DNA of 64,000 nt, taken from the NCBI GenBank assembly GCA_017854585.1, contig JAFMHK010000015.1, positions 1 to 64,000 on the forward strand, read 5' to 3'. Of this stretch, positions 1,047 to 9,600 are shown in pieces. Numbering within the stretch: position 1 is the first letter of the stretch; each line of letters opens with the position of its first letter. Under the pieces are notes generated by a model. It was given only the letters and a program-made list of their open reading frames with translations. It did no database searches and was not told where the DNA came from. The stretch comes from Paracoccaceae bacterium (lineage in GTDB: Bacteria; Pseudomonadota; Alphaproteobacteria; Rhodobacterales; Rhodobacteraceae). A program made the translations under genes and the position numbers.

Positions 1047-1730
1047 ATGGTCGAGGTAGACGCGCTGGTCGCCCTTCAGGCGCAATATGACAAGCTCAAG
1101 CGGCGACAGGCCCGCAATGAACGCGCCCATTTCGCGCGCGGTCTGATGCAAGGCATCATGTCGATGCTGAAGCCCGGCGACGTCGTGCTCGACTGCGGCG
1201 CCAACATCGGGGAGGTGACCGAACCGCTGGCGGCGACGGGGGCAACCGTTCACGCGTTCGAACCCGACCCCTATGCGTTCGAACAAATCTCGCGCCGGAT
1301 GCAGGGTGTCGAAAATGTCGTCCTGCACAACGCCGCCGTGGCGGTCGAGGCGGGAAAACTGCGCCTGATGCGGGCGGTAAATTTCGACGACAACCCCAAG
1401 GCGGGCTCGGTCAAGAGCACGTTGATCGCGGGCGCGCGCAACATCAACGAACAAGACGGGATTGAGGTCGACGTGATCGCCTTGCCCGATCTGATCCGGG
1501 ATGTCGCGGGCAAACACGGCGAAGTCGCGTTCCTGAAGATGGATATCGAAGGCGCGGAACTGGACTTGCTGGAACAGATGCACACGGATCGGCTTTTCGA
1601 TCTGGTGCGGCTGACCGTGGCCGAAACGCATGAAAACAAATTCGCCGACCTTCGCCCCCGTTTCGCCGATCTGCGCGCGGCGGTGGCCGAGGCCTACCCG
1701 ATCACTCACGTCAACCTCGACTGGATCTGA
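1047..1730 (+). CDS. FkbM-family SAM-dependent methyltransferase
   Basis: A 227-residue class I methyltransferase. The SAM-binding motif I is VVLDCGANIGEVTEPLA (about residues 48-64), followed by the acidic strand end AFEPDPYAFE and, further on, FLKMDIEGAELDLLEQM, which is the DIEGAE motif typical of the FkbM family. Such enzymes usually O-methylate sugars or other small acceptors; the substrate here cannot be read from the sequence. It starts 4 bases after the preceding stop with GGAG upstream, and ends 3 bases before glyS, so it is inside the glyQ-glyS transcription unit. No signal peptide or membrane segment is visible, so it should be cytoplasmic. Confidence 0.85.
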   Translation: MVEVDALVALQAQYDKLKRRQARNERAHFARGLMQGIMSMLKPGDVVLDCGANIGEVTEPLAATGATVHAFEPDPYAFEQISRRMQGVENVVLHNAAVAVEAGKLRLMRAVNFDDNPKAGSVKSTLIAGARNINEQDGIEVDVIALPDLIRDVAGKHGEVAFLKMDIEGAELDLLEQMHTDRLFDLVRLTVAETHENKFADLRPRFADLRAAVAEAYPITHVNLDWI

Positions 1731-1733
1731 GCC

Positions 1734-3956
1734 ATGCCCGATCTCCTGCTGGAGCTGTTTTCCGAGGAAATTCCTGCGCGTATGCAGGGCAAGGCCGCGG
1801 CTGATCTGAAGAAGCTTGTGACCGAGGGATTGGTCGAAGCCGGGTTGACCTATGCCAGCGCGGGCGCGTTTTCGACGCCCCGCCGCCTGACCCTGACGAT
1901 CGAGGGCCTGACGGGCGCATCGCCGACCCTGCACGAAGAACGCAAGGGGCCGCGGACCGATGCCCCGGAGAAGGCGCTGGAGGGCTTCTTGCGCGCCACC
2001 GGGCTGACGCGCGACCAACTGGAAGCGCGCGATGACAAGAAAGGGCAAGTCTGGTTCGCGACCGTTACCAGACCGGGCCGCCCCGCCGCCGATATCATCG
2101 CCGAACTGATCCCCCAGATCATCCGGACGTTCCCTTGGCCCAAATCCATGCGCTGGGGGGCGGGCAGCCTGCGCTGGGTGCGCCCCCTGCATTCGATCTT
2201 GTGCCTGCTTGGGGATGAGGCGGGGACCGATGTGGTTCCCTTCGATGTCGATGGCATCGTCAGCGGCGCCACGACCGAAGGCCACCGGTTTCTGGCCCCG
2301 GGTCGTTTCGCGGTCTCCTCGTTTGCCGATTACGAGGCGAAATTGGCACGCGCCAAGGTCGTTCTGGCCGCCGAGGCGCGGGCCGAAACCATCTGGCATG
2401 ACGCCACGAACATGGCGTTCGCGGCAGGGTTGGAAGTTGTCGCCGACCCCGGTTTGCTGGGCGAAGTTGCGGGGCTGGTCGAATGGCCCGTCGTGCTGAT
2501 GGGCGAGATCGGGACCGATTTCCTTGGCTTGCCGCCAGAGGTGCTGCAAACGTCGATGCGGGAGCATCAGAAATTCTTCTCGGTGCGCGACACCGCGACC
2601 GGGCAGATCGCGCGGTTCGTGACAGTGGCCAACCGCGATACCGCAGATCACGGCGCGACCATTCTGGCGGGGAACCAAAAGGTGCTTGCCGCGCGTTTGT
2701 CGGACGCGAAATTCTTTTGGGAAAACGACCTGCGGATTGCGCGTTCCGATCTGAGTGTCTGGACGCAAGCGCTTGAAAACGTGACGTTTCATAACAAGTT
2801 GGGCACTCAGTCCGCCCGGATCGGCCGCATTGCCGCTTTGGCGCGTGAGATTGCCCCGATGGTCGGAGCCGACCCCGTGCAGGCCGAGGTCGCCGCGCGC
2901 ATCGCCAAGGCCGATCTGTCGTCTGAAATGGTCTTCGAATTTCCCGAGTTGCAGGGCGTCATGGGCCGGTATTATGCCGCCGCCGCGGGCCACCCGGCGG
3001 ATGTGGCCGCCGTGGCCGCCGAACATTATTCCCCGCTTGGGCCAGGGGATGCGGTGCCGACTGCGCCCTTGTCGGTCGCGGTAGCACTGGCGGACAAGAT
3101 CGATACCCTGACGGGGTTCTGGGCGATTGACGAAAAACCCACCGGATCGAAAGATCCGTTCGCGCTGCGGCGCGCGGCCTTGGGGGTGATCCGCATCATT
3201 CTGAATGGTAACCACCGCTTGCAGTTGGACAGGCTGTTTGATGCCCAAATTCTGCGCCACAAGATCACCCCGGCGGACGGCCCTCACGAGAAGGCGCTTT
3301 TGCGCGCGATCTTGGGCGAGATCGCCCGGCACGGCGTGTTCAGCGCCGCAGTTCGCGCCATCGTCGACAAGATCGAAGGCGACGCGCCGGATTGGGTCGA
3401 AGACGTGATTGCGCATGCCCCCGACACCAGCGACGATTTGCTTGCGTTCTTCCACGACCGCCTGAAGGTCTTTCTGCGTGACGAAGGGATACGGCATGAC
3501 GTCATCGATGCCTGCCTTGCGATGCCCGGCAACGATGATCTGAGCCTGCTTGTCAAACGCGCGCGTGCGCTGCAGGCCACGCTGCAAACCCCGGATGGCG
3601 AAAACCTGATCCAAGGGTTCAAGCGCGCCGCCAACATTCTGGCGCAGGCCGAAGAGGCGGATGGTGTCGAATACCGATATGGCGCAAACCCGAAGTTTGC
3701 CGAAACAGATGCGGAGCGCGCGTTGTTCTCCGCCCTGAAAACGGCCACCTCGGCGATTGCCCCGGCACTGGCGACCGAAGATTTTGCCGCTGCGATGCGC
3801 CATATGGCGAACTTGCGCGCGCCCATCGACGCGTTCTTCACGGCGGCGCAGGTCAATGCGGAGAATCAGGTTGTGCGGCGAAACCGGCTCAACCTGTTGC
3901 ATGAGATCGTGCAAACCTGCTCTGCGGTGGCCGATCTGACGCGGCTGGATGGGTGA
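1734..3956 (+). CDS. glyS: Glycine--tRNA ligase beta subunit
   Basis: The 740-residue beta chain of glycyl-tRNA synthetase, which binds tRNA-Gly and contributes editing/HD-type and anticodon-binding regions. It begins MPDLLLELFSEEIPARMQ, the standard GlyS N terminus, and contains FSTPRRLT, the PKSMRWG segment, LQTSMREHQKFF and the C-terminal anticodon-binding DALR-like region (NRLNLLHEIV). Its length is slightly above the usual 690 or so. The ATG lies 3 bases after the FkbM gene with only a weak ribosome site, implying coupling. A short hairpin (TGCCGCA/TGCGGCA) follows the stop at about 3959-3973. Confidence 0.97.
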   Translation: MPDLLLELFSEEIPARMQGKAAADLKKLVTEGLVEAGLTYASAGAFSTPRRLTLTIEGLTGASPTLHEERKGPRTDAPEKALEGFLRATGLTRDQLEARDDKKGQVWFATVTRPGRPAADIIAELIPQIIRTFPWPKSMRWGAGSLRWVRPLHSILCLLGDEAGTDVVPFDVDGIVSGATTEGHRFLAPGRFAVSSFADYEAKLARAKVVLAAEARAETIWHDATNMAFAAGLEVVADPGLLGEVAGLVEWPVVLMGEIGTDFLGLPPEVLQTSMREHQKFFSVRDTATGQIARFVTVANRDTADHGATILAGNQKVLAARLSDAKFFWENDLRIARSDLSVWTQALENVTFHNKLGTQSARIGRIAALAREIAPMVGADPVQAEVAARIAKADLSSEMVFEFPELQGVMGRYYAAAAGHPADVAAVAAEHYSPLGPGDAVPTAPLSVAVALADKIDTLTGFWAIDEKPTGSKDPFALRRAALGVIRIILNGNHRLQLDRLFDAQILRHKITPADGPHEKALLRAILGEIARHGVFSAAVRAIVDKIEGDAPDWVEDVIAHAPDTSDDLLAFFHDRLKVFLRDEGIRHDVIDACLAMPGNDDLSLLVKRARALQATLQTPDGENLIQGFKRAANILAQAEEADGVEYRYGANPKFAETDAERALFSALKTATSAIAPALATEDFAAAMRHMANLRAPIDAFFTAAQVNAENQVVRRNRLNLLHEIVQTCSAVADLTRLDG

Positions 3957-6597: not shown

Positions 6598-6778
6598 TTG
6601 CATTGCGTTGTTGATGTGGGCTTGGTGCATTTGCATCGCAACAGGTAGCGGGCCTTCGGCCACTTATCCACAACACTGAGGGCCGATTTTGCATGGCTGG
6701 CCCGACAAGCTATTAACCTTACCAAGCGATTCGCATCAGACAGTCGCAACTGGGGCGCAGGCCTCCGGAAAGGTGAAC

Positions 6779-7456
6779 ATGTGCAAACGTCTTCTTTGGG
6801 TCGCCGTCACGGCTGGCCTTTTGAGCCTTTCGGGTGTTGCCTCGGCGCAGGTCACTGTCAGCACGTCAACCGACCCGACCGATGCCATCACCTTGCGCCT
6901 GAGCAGCCTGATGGGCGAAGATCACGCCGCGTTGTCGGCGCTGCGGCCTGACCGCTTGCGCTATATCGGTTCCCCGTTCGTCGGCCGCGACCGCGGTCGC
7001 CGTGGATCGGACGACCGCGTCTGGACAGCCTCCGAACTGGATCAGATGCGCCGCCCCCGGCGTGGCCGGGAATGGGAATGCCTGACCGAGGCGCTGTATT
7101 TCGAGGCCCGTGGTGAAAGCATCGAAGGCCAATATGCCGTGTCCGAGGTTATCTTGAACCGGGTTGATTCCGACAACTACCCGAACTCCATCTGCGGGGT
7201 GGTCAATCAGGGAACGGGCAGGCGGAATGCGTGTCAGTTCAGCTATACATGCGACGGCATTCCCGAACGGGTCACCGATGATAGGACGTGGGACCGGTTG
7301 GGCCAGATCGCCCGCATCATGATGAACGGCGCGCCGCGCGACATCACCGGTGATGCCACCCATTATCACACCACCGCCGTCAACCCGCACTGGGCGCGGG
7401 TTTACCCGCAGACGGCGCAGGTGGGCGTGCATCTTTTCTATCGGCAACAATACTGA
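6779..7456 (+). CDS. Exported cell wall hydrolase, SleB type
   Basis: A 225-residue exported protein. Residues 1-24 form a clear signal peptide (MCKRLLWVAVTAGLL... ending SGVASAQ). The C-terminal half is a Hydrolase_2/SleB domain: LTEALYFEARGES, followed by YAVSEVILNRV, NACQFSYTCDG and THYHTTAVNPHWA. Family members act on peptidoglycan (germination-type lytic transglycosylase or amidase), with the Glu in YFEARGE as likely catalytic residue. The ATG at 6779 was chosen because it begins the signal peptide and has GGAAAGG upstream; a longer frame to 6689 would add 30 residues before it. It is preceded by 180 bases of non-coding sequence, so it is probably transcribed alone. Confidence 0.88.
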   Translation: MCKRLLWVAVTAGLLSLSGVASAQVTVSTSTDPTDAITLRLSSLMGEDHAALSALRPDRLRYIGSPFVGRDRGRRGSDDRVWTASELDQMRRPRRGREWECLTEALYFEARGESIEGQYAVSEVILNRVDSDNYPNSICGVVNQGTGRRNACQFSYTCDGIPERVTDDRTWDRLGQIARIMMNGAPRDITGDATHYHTTAVNPHWARVYPQTAQVGVHLFYRQQY

Positions 7457-7557: not shown

Positions 7558-8484
7558 ATGACCGATGAGACCAGCCTTGCCTTCCAACACCCCGCGGCCC
7601 GCGCGCAGGCGACGGGCGGACCTGATCCGTTGGACCGGATTTCGATGTCCGACCACGAGCGGGAGGTGGAAATAGGCGCGTTTCAGGCCGAACGCGGCAC
7701 CACGCAACGGGTGCGCTTCAATGTCGTGGTCGAGGTCCGGTCCGCTGCCGAAAGTGCCGCCGACGATGTGGATCGCATCTTGTCATACGACACCATCGTG
7801 GAGGCGATCGACCACGCCCTTGCCGCAGAACGGGTCAACCTGCTGGAAACTCTGGCGGCGCGGATCGCCGAACAGATCCTTGCGCACCCGCTGGCGGCGC
7901 GATGTTTCGTGCGGATCGAAAAGCTGGATCGCGGCCCCTTTGTTCTGGGTGTGGAGATCGTGCGGCAGGCCCCGGAGCGCGCGCCGTTGCGCCCCGCGCC
8001 ACAGGGATCGCCACATCCGGTCGTCGTGTTCTTGTCCAACGCGGCCATTCACCGCCCCGATCTGGCCACCTTGCTGAACCGACTGGCGATGGGCCGCGCC
8101 CCCCTGATCTTGTGCGTCGGGCCATCTGACTTGCCTGTGCCCCGCGCCGCCCACGCCATGCCTCAACGCCGGATTGATCTTCTGGCCATGGAGCAGAACG
8201 CCTGGGTTCTGGCCGCGCTGGATGCGCGATGCGTGGTGGTCTCCAGCCGCACCGAACTGGATTGGGCGATGAAACACGGGCAGATTTCAGTTTGGGCCCC
8301 GTCCAAGTTGGTGCTTGATGCGGTCGCGGGGCCGGCGGCCACGGTCACCGATCCACTGGCGCTGACAGGTTGGTTCGCGGCCCAATTCGGGGCGGAACAT
8401 CTGTTGGTGTTCGGGCACGACGCGCCCGATGCGGGCACCATCCCGGCATTGTGCATTCCCGCCGACGGGTTTCCGCCGTCCTGA
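7558..8484 (+). CDS. folB: Dihydroneopterin aldolase fused to a kinase-like C-terminal domain
   Basis: A 308-residue protein, more than twice the length of ordinary FolB (about 120). Residues 25-140 are a dihydroneopterin aldolase that makes 6-hydroxymethyl-dihydropterin in folate synthesis: IGAFQAERGTTQRV carries the catalytic Glu, LSYDTIVEAI and LLETLAARIA follow, and RIEKLD has the catalytic Lys. Residues 155-308 read like an amino-acid-kinase fold: VVVFLSNAAI, AHAMPQRRIDLLAMEQNAWVL, ISVWAPSKLVLD and TVTDPLALTGWFAAQFGAE match the pattern of MfnE-like AAK proteins. The glycine-rich nucleotide loops are absent, so it is probably not an active kinase. It is followed closely by folP, in keeping with pterin synthesis. 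Confidence 0.85.
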   Translation: MTDETSLAFQHPAARAQATGGPDPLDRISMSDHEREVEIGAFQAERGTTQRVRFNVVVEVRSAAESAADDVDRILSYDTIVEAIDHALAAERVNLLETLAARIAEQILAHPLAARCFVRIEKLDRGPFVLGVEIVRQAPERAPLRPAPQGSPHPVVVFLSNAAIHRPDLATLLNRLAMGRAPLILCVGPSDLPVPRAAHAMPQRRIDLLAMEQNAWVLAALDARCVVVSSRTELDWAMKHGQISVWAPSKLVLDAVAGPAATVTDPLALTGWFAAQFGAEHLLVFGHDAPDAGTIPALCIPADGFPPS

Positions 8485-8565: not shown

Positions 8566-9600
8566 ATGCAAGATTACCTGCGCCCCATCCCGATAAGCGA
8601 CCCGGCCAACATCGCCGGTGCCTTGCCGCTGGCGGGCGGCTGGGCGCGGTTCACGCATGTGGAGTTGCTGTCGCGTGGTGACGCGCCGCGTGTGCTTCCC
8701 GCCAGCAGCCTGTCGCCCGAACAGCTTGCCCCGCTGATCGCGCCGCGTGCGGATGTCGCGGAAATATCGCTGGATCGGCCCCGCCTGATGGGGATCTTGA
8801 ACGTCACACCCGACAGCTTTTCAGACGGCGGGCGCCATCTGGCCCCGTTGGCGGCGTTGGCCCAAGCGCGTGCAATGGCCGAGGCAGGGGCCGATCTGAT
8901 CGATATCGGCGGCGAATCCACCCGGCCCGGCGCGGCGGAAATGCCCGTCGCAGAGGAAGTGGACCGCGTCGTTCCGGTGATCTGTGCAATGCGCGCCGCC
9001 GGGCTGACCCTGCCGATCAGCATCGATACCCGCAAGTCGCCGGTGGCCAAGGCCGCCCTTGCCGCGGGGGGATCGGTCCTCAACGATGTGTCCGGCCTGC
9101 GGTTCGACCCCGATCTGGCGGAGGTTGCGGCGCATCATGATGTGCCTTTGATCGTGATGCATTCCATCGGCACGCCCGAAACGATGCAAGCCAGCGCCGC
9201 GGCCGCGTATGACGATGTCTTGCTGGATGTTTACGATAGCCTTGCGGCCATCGTGGCGGGGGCCGTGCGCGCGGGCGTTGCGCGCACGCGGATCATGGTG
9301 GATCCCGGTATCGGTTTTGGCAAGACTCCGGCGCAAAATCAGGCGCTTCTGGCCCGGCTCAGCCTGTTTCACGGGTTGGGGTGTGGGATATTGCTGGGCG
9401 TTTCGCGCAAGGGGTTCGTGGGGACGATCGGTCGGGAACCGCGTGCCGACAGGCGCGATGCGGCATCGGCGGCGGTTGGCCTATGGGCGGTCAGCCAAGG
9501 GATACAGATGCTGCGGGTTCATGATATAGAGACCCACAGGCAAATGATCGCGTTGTGGCAACATGCCCGCGGCGCGACGGAAAAAAGGGCAGACACGTGA
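8566..9600 (+). CDS. folP: Dihydropteroate synthase
   Basis: A 344-residue enzyme that condenses hydroxymethyl-dihydropterin pyrophosphate with p-aminobenzoate to form dihydropteroate, the target of sulfonamides. The hallmark motifs are [57 protein letters not shown] and LLGVSRKGF. About 65 residues precede the catalytic barrel; this N-terminal extension is common in alphaproteobacterial FolP. It lies 81 bases after the folB-like gene and its stop overlaps the glmM start (GTGA), giving a folB-folP-glmM group. The classical order in many bacteria also places folP directly before glmM. Confidence 0.97.

Follow-up and report, generated by a model that had tools for sequence, protein, structure and literature searches.

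A Rhodobacteraceae dihydroneopterin aldolase joined to a probable remnant of the methylofuran kinase MfnE

The gene ahead of folP in this Rhodobacteraceae contig encodes a dihydroneopterin aldolase (FolB) with a long C-terminal extension that has no Pfam or NCBIfam name. What is this second domain, where did it come from, and what could it do for a folate enzyme? The initial annotation, made from the sequence alone, had read the protein as FolB fused to a degenerate MfnE-like amino-acid-kinase domain. We analyzed the gene in the window, the whole 64,000-nucleotide stretch of DNA under study, together with its relatives. The evidence points, with reasonable probability, to a Rhodobacteraceae dihydroneopterin aldolase composed of FolB and a dead MfnE from a methylofuran cluster, the latter re-used non-catalytically for folate.

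Gene layout and the FolB half

The fusion gene is an open reading frame of 308 amino acids on the plus strand (7558–8484), with its ATG at 7558 and its stop codon at 8482–8484; the features of this gene and folP given below lie on the same strand. Orthologues of about the same length occur throughout Rhodobacteraceae, mostly at 54–75% identity, and the closest named relatives (68–75%) belong to Roseobacter sp., Rhodophyticola, Boseongicola, Nioella, and Roseicyclus. The protein begins with a segment of residues 1–23 (7558–7626), which has the near-invariant pattern AF..P..R (A8, F9, P12, and R15) and two predicted helices at 4–8 and 12–19. The FolB domain follows at residues 24–139 (7627–7974), as delimited by PF02152, by fold matches to dihydroneopterin aldolase (DHNA) structures, and by conservation. 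A variable linker of residues 140–152 (7975–8013), with a mean pairwise identity of 21% and a pLDDT below 50 at 142–149, leads to the pseudo-MfnE domain at residues 153–290 (8014–8427), which is defined by the AlphaFold2 model, the VIA match to 7qrh, and hhalign. The full-length model has a pTM of 0.59, and the arrangement of the domains in it is uncertain.

Residues 28–125 match Pfam PF02152 (FolB) with an E-value of 7.7e-18 and 65.5 bits against a curated cut-off of 31.8. The NCBIfam equivalog folB, TIGR00525, scores 52.3 bits, below its cut-off of 72.15, and the FolB function is therefore claimed from residues and context and not from this model. In the full-length model, the FolB half matches DHNA structures with Z up to 14.3. 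Its active-site residues E45, Q50, Y77, E97, and K122, which correspond to E22, Q27, Y54, E74, and K100 of Staphylococcus aureus DHNA, do not vary among the 78 relatives compared (78 of 78), in agreement with the earlier claim that the FolB residues are intact. The loop following the active-site lysine is shorter in the fusion than in ordinary FolB: EKLDRGPGALGVEI.

The genomic context is that of folate synthesis. The FolB domain of the fusion is the sole FolB of the genome. The gene lies between a cell-wall hydrolase (6689–7456) and folP, the dihydropteroate synthase gene at 8566–9600 (TIGR01496, 286.9 bits, above cut-off), which is followed by glmM. We compared the named Rhodobacteraceae loci that have long flanks, 67 in number. 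All 67 contain folP, 62 contain glmM, and 63 contain the hydrolase, always on the same strand, and the adjacency to folP noted in the initial annotation holds in every one of them. Collectively, the active-site residues, the uniqueness of the gene in the genome, and the folP neighbor suggest that the FolB of the fusion supplies 6-hydroxymethyl-dihydropterin for folate.

Several further features were observed in this context. FolP has approximately 70 residues ahead of its pterin-binding domain (8566–8790), and in the relatives inspected at this locus the alignment of this extension starts at residue 1. One genome carries two fusion genes in tandem (L248 and L253; G408 C114). In the L253 copy, E45 and Q50 of FolB seemingly became G and V, with the Y, E, and K kept, and this copy may be a second pseudo-enzyme. 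In two nearly complete Rhodobacteraceae genomes (G014 and G029), no FolB was found by profile search, and these organisms may use another pterin route or folate uptake.

Fold and decay of the C-terminal domain

Sequence searches of Pfam, NCBIfam, and the PDB with the single protein or with C domains returned no family for this domain, residues 150–308 of the query matched no Pfam or NCBIfam model, and none matched consistently across 29 orthologues. In particular, Pfam PF00696 matched none of 29 C domains; it does match a standalone relative and an MfnB-FolB-MfnE triple fusion. From the alignment of 29 C domains, AlphaFold produced an amino-acid-kinase fold with a pLDDT of 94.5 and a pTM of 0.90. 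When 1000 chains were realigned with VIA, the best match of this model was 7qrh, the 5-(aminomethyl)furan-3-yl methyl phosphate kinase MfnE of Methanococcus vannielii (Z 16.4, rmsd 2.7, 153 residues). UMP and aspartate kinases came next at Z of 13.9 or less, 2.5 below, and many amino-acid kinases lay at 11–14. Plain Foldseek placed the UMP kinase 8yh1 and 7qrh jointly at the top (E 3e-5 to 1e-4), and the C half of the full-length model again gave 7qrh first (Z 15.9). The single return of the C-domain profile from PDB sequences was also 7qrh, at a weak E-value of 0.31. Two results had been named in advance as contradicting the proposed identity, namely the absence of an amino-acid-kinase fold and the presence of a different known domain; the fold is present, and the closest known structure is MfnE.

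Profile comparison links the domain to one branch of this fold. Aligned by hhalign with MfnE-like kinases of bacterial C1 clusters, the C-domain profile reached an E-value of 4.4e-17 over 134 columns at 27% identity, and individual MfnE-like members matched it with probabilities of 74–98%. Thirteen controls, comprising the five other amino-acid kinases of the genome and eight unrelated proteins of the window, stayed at or below 0.3%. The match together with the negative controls indicates kinship of the C-terminal 155 residues to MfnE-like kinases specifically and not to the fold in general, as had been proposed. A generic amino-acid kinase was ruled out as the ancestor, given that the five other such kinases of the genome had no profile match.

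To locate what the domain has lost, we compared the motifs of 35 MfnE-like kinases with those of 29 fusions. In the amino-acid kinase family, the residues of the KLGGS, GGG, and TSDS motifs bind ATP and catalyze the reaction, and the solved MfnE has all three. All 35 kinases carry the KLGGS lysine with its GG pair, the GGG loop, and the TSDS aspartate. In contrast, neither the catalytic lysine nor the TSDS aspartate occurs in any of the 29 fusions. In the window, F158-L-S-N-A162 (8029–8043) stands at the place of the catalytic KLGGS, and C-V-G-P-S at 186–190 (8113–8127) stands at the place of VPGGG, with the PFAD.VR segment after it deleted. This bears out the earlier statement that the glycine loops are replaced, FLSNAA aligning with KLGGS and GPSD with PGGG. 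Likewise, D265-P-L-A268 (8350–8361) occupies the place of TSDS, and the invariant aspartate is lost (L267). Of the GGG loop, only the first glycine is common among the 29 fusions; the segment after the loop is deleted, and all 29 lack the C-terminal ATP lobe of approximately 60 residues. No less degenerate intermediate was found among the 17 weakest-scoring Rhodobacteraceae copies (16 genomes), all of which show the same loss. Collectively, the loss of the residues expected for ATP binding and phosphate transfer marks the C-domain kinase as dead by sequence. The predicted structure, the fold matches, the profiles, and the motifs all support a degenerate MfnE-like domain fused to FolB.

Other parts of the domain are well conserved. 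The long helix at 200–221 (AMPQRRIDLLAMEQNAWVLAAL; 8155–8220) corresponds in the model and the alignment to the MfnE helix AHxMAxLAMEQ and is kept. Most of the 18 conserved fusion columns that are common to MfnE-like kinases lie in this helix or at W246, P248, and W272. A further 22 columns are conserved in the fusions only, including R204, R205, W216, R231, T232, E233, D235, W236, K250, and D254. Column comparison places some of these in R231-T-E-L-D-W236 (8248–8265), a new near-invariant motif absent from MfnE-like kinases, and others in W246-APSKLVLD-A255 (8293–8322), where the W and P are common to MfnE and K250 and D254 are fusion-specific. Across 71 close pairs, FolB had a median dN/dS of 0.067, compared with 0.123 in the C domain; the core of the latter (200–275) stood at 0.084 and the tail at 0.365. 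Collectively, the strong purifying selection on the pseudo-MfnE domain and the columns conserved only in fusions argue for a new role rather than decay.

Spread and origin of the fusion

A survey of how widely the fusion occurs, as the initial annotation had suggested, found that 165 of the 199 genera of Rhodobacteraceae have the C domain, and the open frame that holds it almost always spans approximately 300–340 residues. In one locus (L240; G397 C247), the C domain lies in a 161-residue frame and the FolB part seemingly in another, probably through an assembly frameshift. Outside the family, class and phylum samples showed no such fusion; what they contained were MfnE-like kinases that have motifs of their own. 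When 289 genomes of the class were searched with the profile, standalone amino-acid kinases were returned outside the family, with E-values down to 5e-16. MfnB (PF04476) is absent from 37 of 37 Rhodobacteraceae genomes tested, including the source genome. In the openly available literature, we found no paper on a FolB-pseudo-MfnE fusion or on DUF556 (MfnB) with FolB.

In bacteria, MfnB, MfnE, and MfnF have homologues in Orf22, Orf21, and Orf9 of Methylorubrum (PMC8141765). Two of the standalone kinases from the 289-genome search sit in clear methylofuran/tetrahydromethanopterin (H4MPT) clusters, which contain FolB, the amino-acid kinase, a flavoprotein, a DUF6513/pterin-binding protein, MfnB, and a hydantoinase-like protein. 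Of 24 MfnE-bearing genomes in one methylotroph family of Alphaproteobacteria, 23 have a FolB domain directly before MfnE, and in seven genomes of other families folB stands immediately ahead of mfnE. Pfam supports an MfnB-FolB fusion in all five proteins scanned (L257, L260, L273, L236, and L259), four of which come from the methylotroph family. L259 (G595) encodes all three parts in a single MfnB-FolB-MfnE frame of 621 residues (1465–3327, minus strand) with the kinase motifs intact. FolB seems to belong regularly to the methylofuran clusters of bacteria, where it has been little noticed; neither this neighborhood of FolB and MfnE nor the spread of the fusion through nearly the whole family was part of the initial annotation.

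In a FolB tree that includes the MfnB-linked FolBs, the Rhodobacteraceae FolBs group with them, at a support that is strong by bootstrap (100) and weak by SH-aLRT (76); with one more row, the values are 97/87. Within this group, an unfused FolB of the Rhodobacteraceae genome G004 (L213, C942:190000–198000), a 172-residue frame that follows the same upstream genes, is sister to all fusions. It may represent an early branch with the ancestral state or a secondary loss. In the kinase-half tree, the fusions lie on a long branch with no clear sister and are too diverged to place.

It is rather unlikely that a native Rhodobacteraceae FolB captured mfnE independently, with the FolB half not coming from a methylofuran cluster. 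Such a capture would accord with the first trees, in which four cluster FolBs did not group with the fusions, with the rejection (p-AU 0.046), under this poorer sampling, of a clade with a different set of five cluster FolBs, and with the lack of a clear sister for the kinase half. However, the fusions join the MfnB-linked FolBs once these are added (100/76), and many methylotrophs carry folB and mfnE in the same order. The first trees, built without the MfnB-linked FolBs, were misleading in that they made the fusions look like a lineage of Rhodobacteraceae only.

From gene context and trees, we infer that the fusion descends from adjacent folB and mfnE genes of a methylofuran/H4MPT cluster and that the rest of the pathway was lost. 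The starting point would have been a neighboring folB-mfnE pair, which became fused; the methylofuran pathway would then have been lost, the kinase site would have decayed, and the domain would have been put to a new use, with FolB kept for folate. The order of fusion and loss in this scheme is itself inferred. Such a descent suggests that methylofuran/H4MPT genes were present in, or acquired by, the ancestors of Rhodobacteraceae, and a folate enzyme would seemingly have come from another one-carbon cofactor pathway with the kinase of that pathway as a pseudo-enzyme.

Possible roles and comparison with known systems

What remains is the function of the pseudo-kinase. Most likely, the C domain has a non-catalytic part to play, in assembly or in ligand sensing: a module that would hold the FolB assembly together, bind a small ligand to tune FolB, or both. 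The retained helix speaks for assembly, and the newly conserved charged residues would suit either ligand binding or a new interface. We regard a purely structural role, in which the long helix dimerizes and stabilizes the FolB oligomer, as conceivable though short of probable. The long helix pairs subunits in many amino-acid kinases, and in the fusion helix 200–221 is among the best conserved stretches common to MfnE, with the ATP-side residues gone; yet many of the newly conserved charged residues lie outside this helix. An allosteric sensor, in which a pterin, folate, or phosphate in the old acceptor pocket would switch the aldolase, is an equally tentative proposal. It would account for the new near-invariant charged and aromatic residues listed above and for the purifying selection on the domain, and it has a precedent in N-acetylglutamate synthase, whose synthase is inhibited by arginine (PMC3236213). 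The suggestion of the initial annotation, that the domain may bind a pterin or phosphate and regulate or channel substrate, would likewise fit these residues and this selection. However, the same residues could equally make a protein interface. By extension, a methylofuran kinase may have become, after fusion and loss of its pathway, a metabolite-binding sensor that controls a folate aldolase in an abundant marine family; we put this forward with less than even confidence.

Two other explanations carry much less weight. A new reaction of the C domain, for instance a further step between FolE and FolP, is improbable: the new invariant residue set and the adjoining folP would fit it, but the domain no longer has the residues known to be catalytic in this fold. 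Least probable by far is a decaying relic without function. The loss of the catalytic motifs and of the C-terminal lobe, as well as the G004 FolB that lacks a C domain, are what a relic would leave; against this stand the dN/dS of 0.12 (core 0.084), the presence in 165 of 199 genera, and the residues invariant across Rhodobacteraceae. Whether a dead kinase regulates folate synthesis is now a direct question that can be tested.

Compared with known systems, the fusion shares with ordinary FolB (PF02152, EC 4.1.2.25) the fold and the five checked active-site residues and differs in its extra conserved N-terminal segment, shorter post-lysine loop, and 155-residue C-terminal domain. With MfnE (7qrh; Orf21 in Methylorubrum), it has in common the amino-acid-kinase fold, the homology over 134 columns, and the W/P/helix core, whereas the catalytic lysine, glycine loops, aspartate, and ATP lobe are missing, and the fusion genomes have no MfnB. 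The methylotroph MfnB-FolB and MfnE proteins (L254–L276, L236, and L259) show the same FolB-MfnE order and a similar FolB with the short EKLELGPG loop; in contrast, their MfnE keeps the catalytic motifs and their FolB is joined to MfnB. As a working parallel, N-acetylglutamate synthase comes closest, in which an amino-acid-kinase fold is also joined to another biosynthetic enzyme and serves as an arginine-binding regulator, although it belongs to another lineage of the fold, has another partner enzyme, and has a known ligand.
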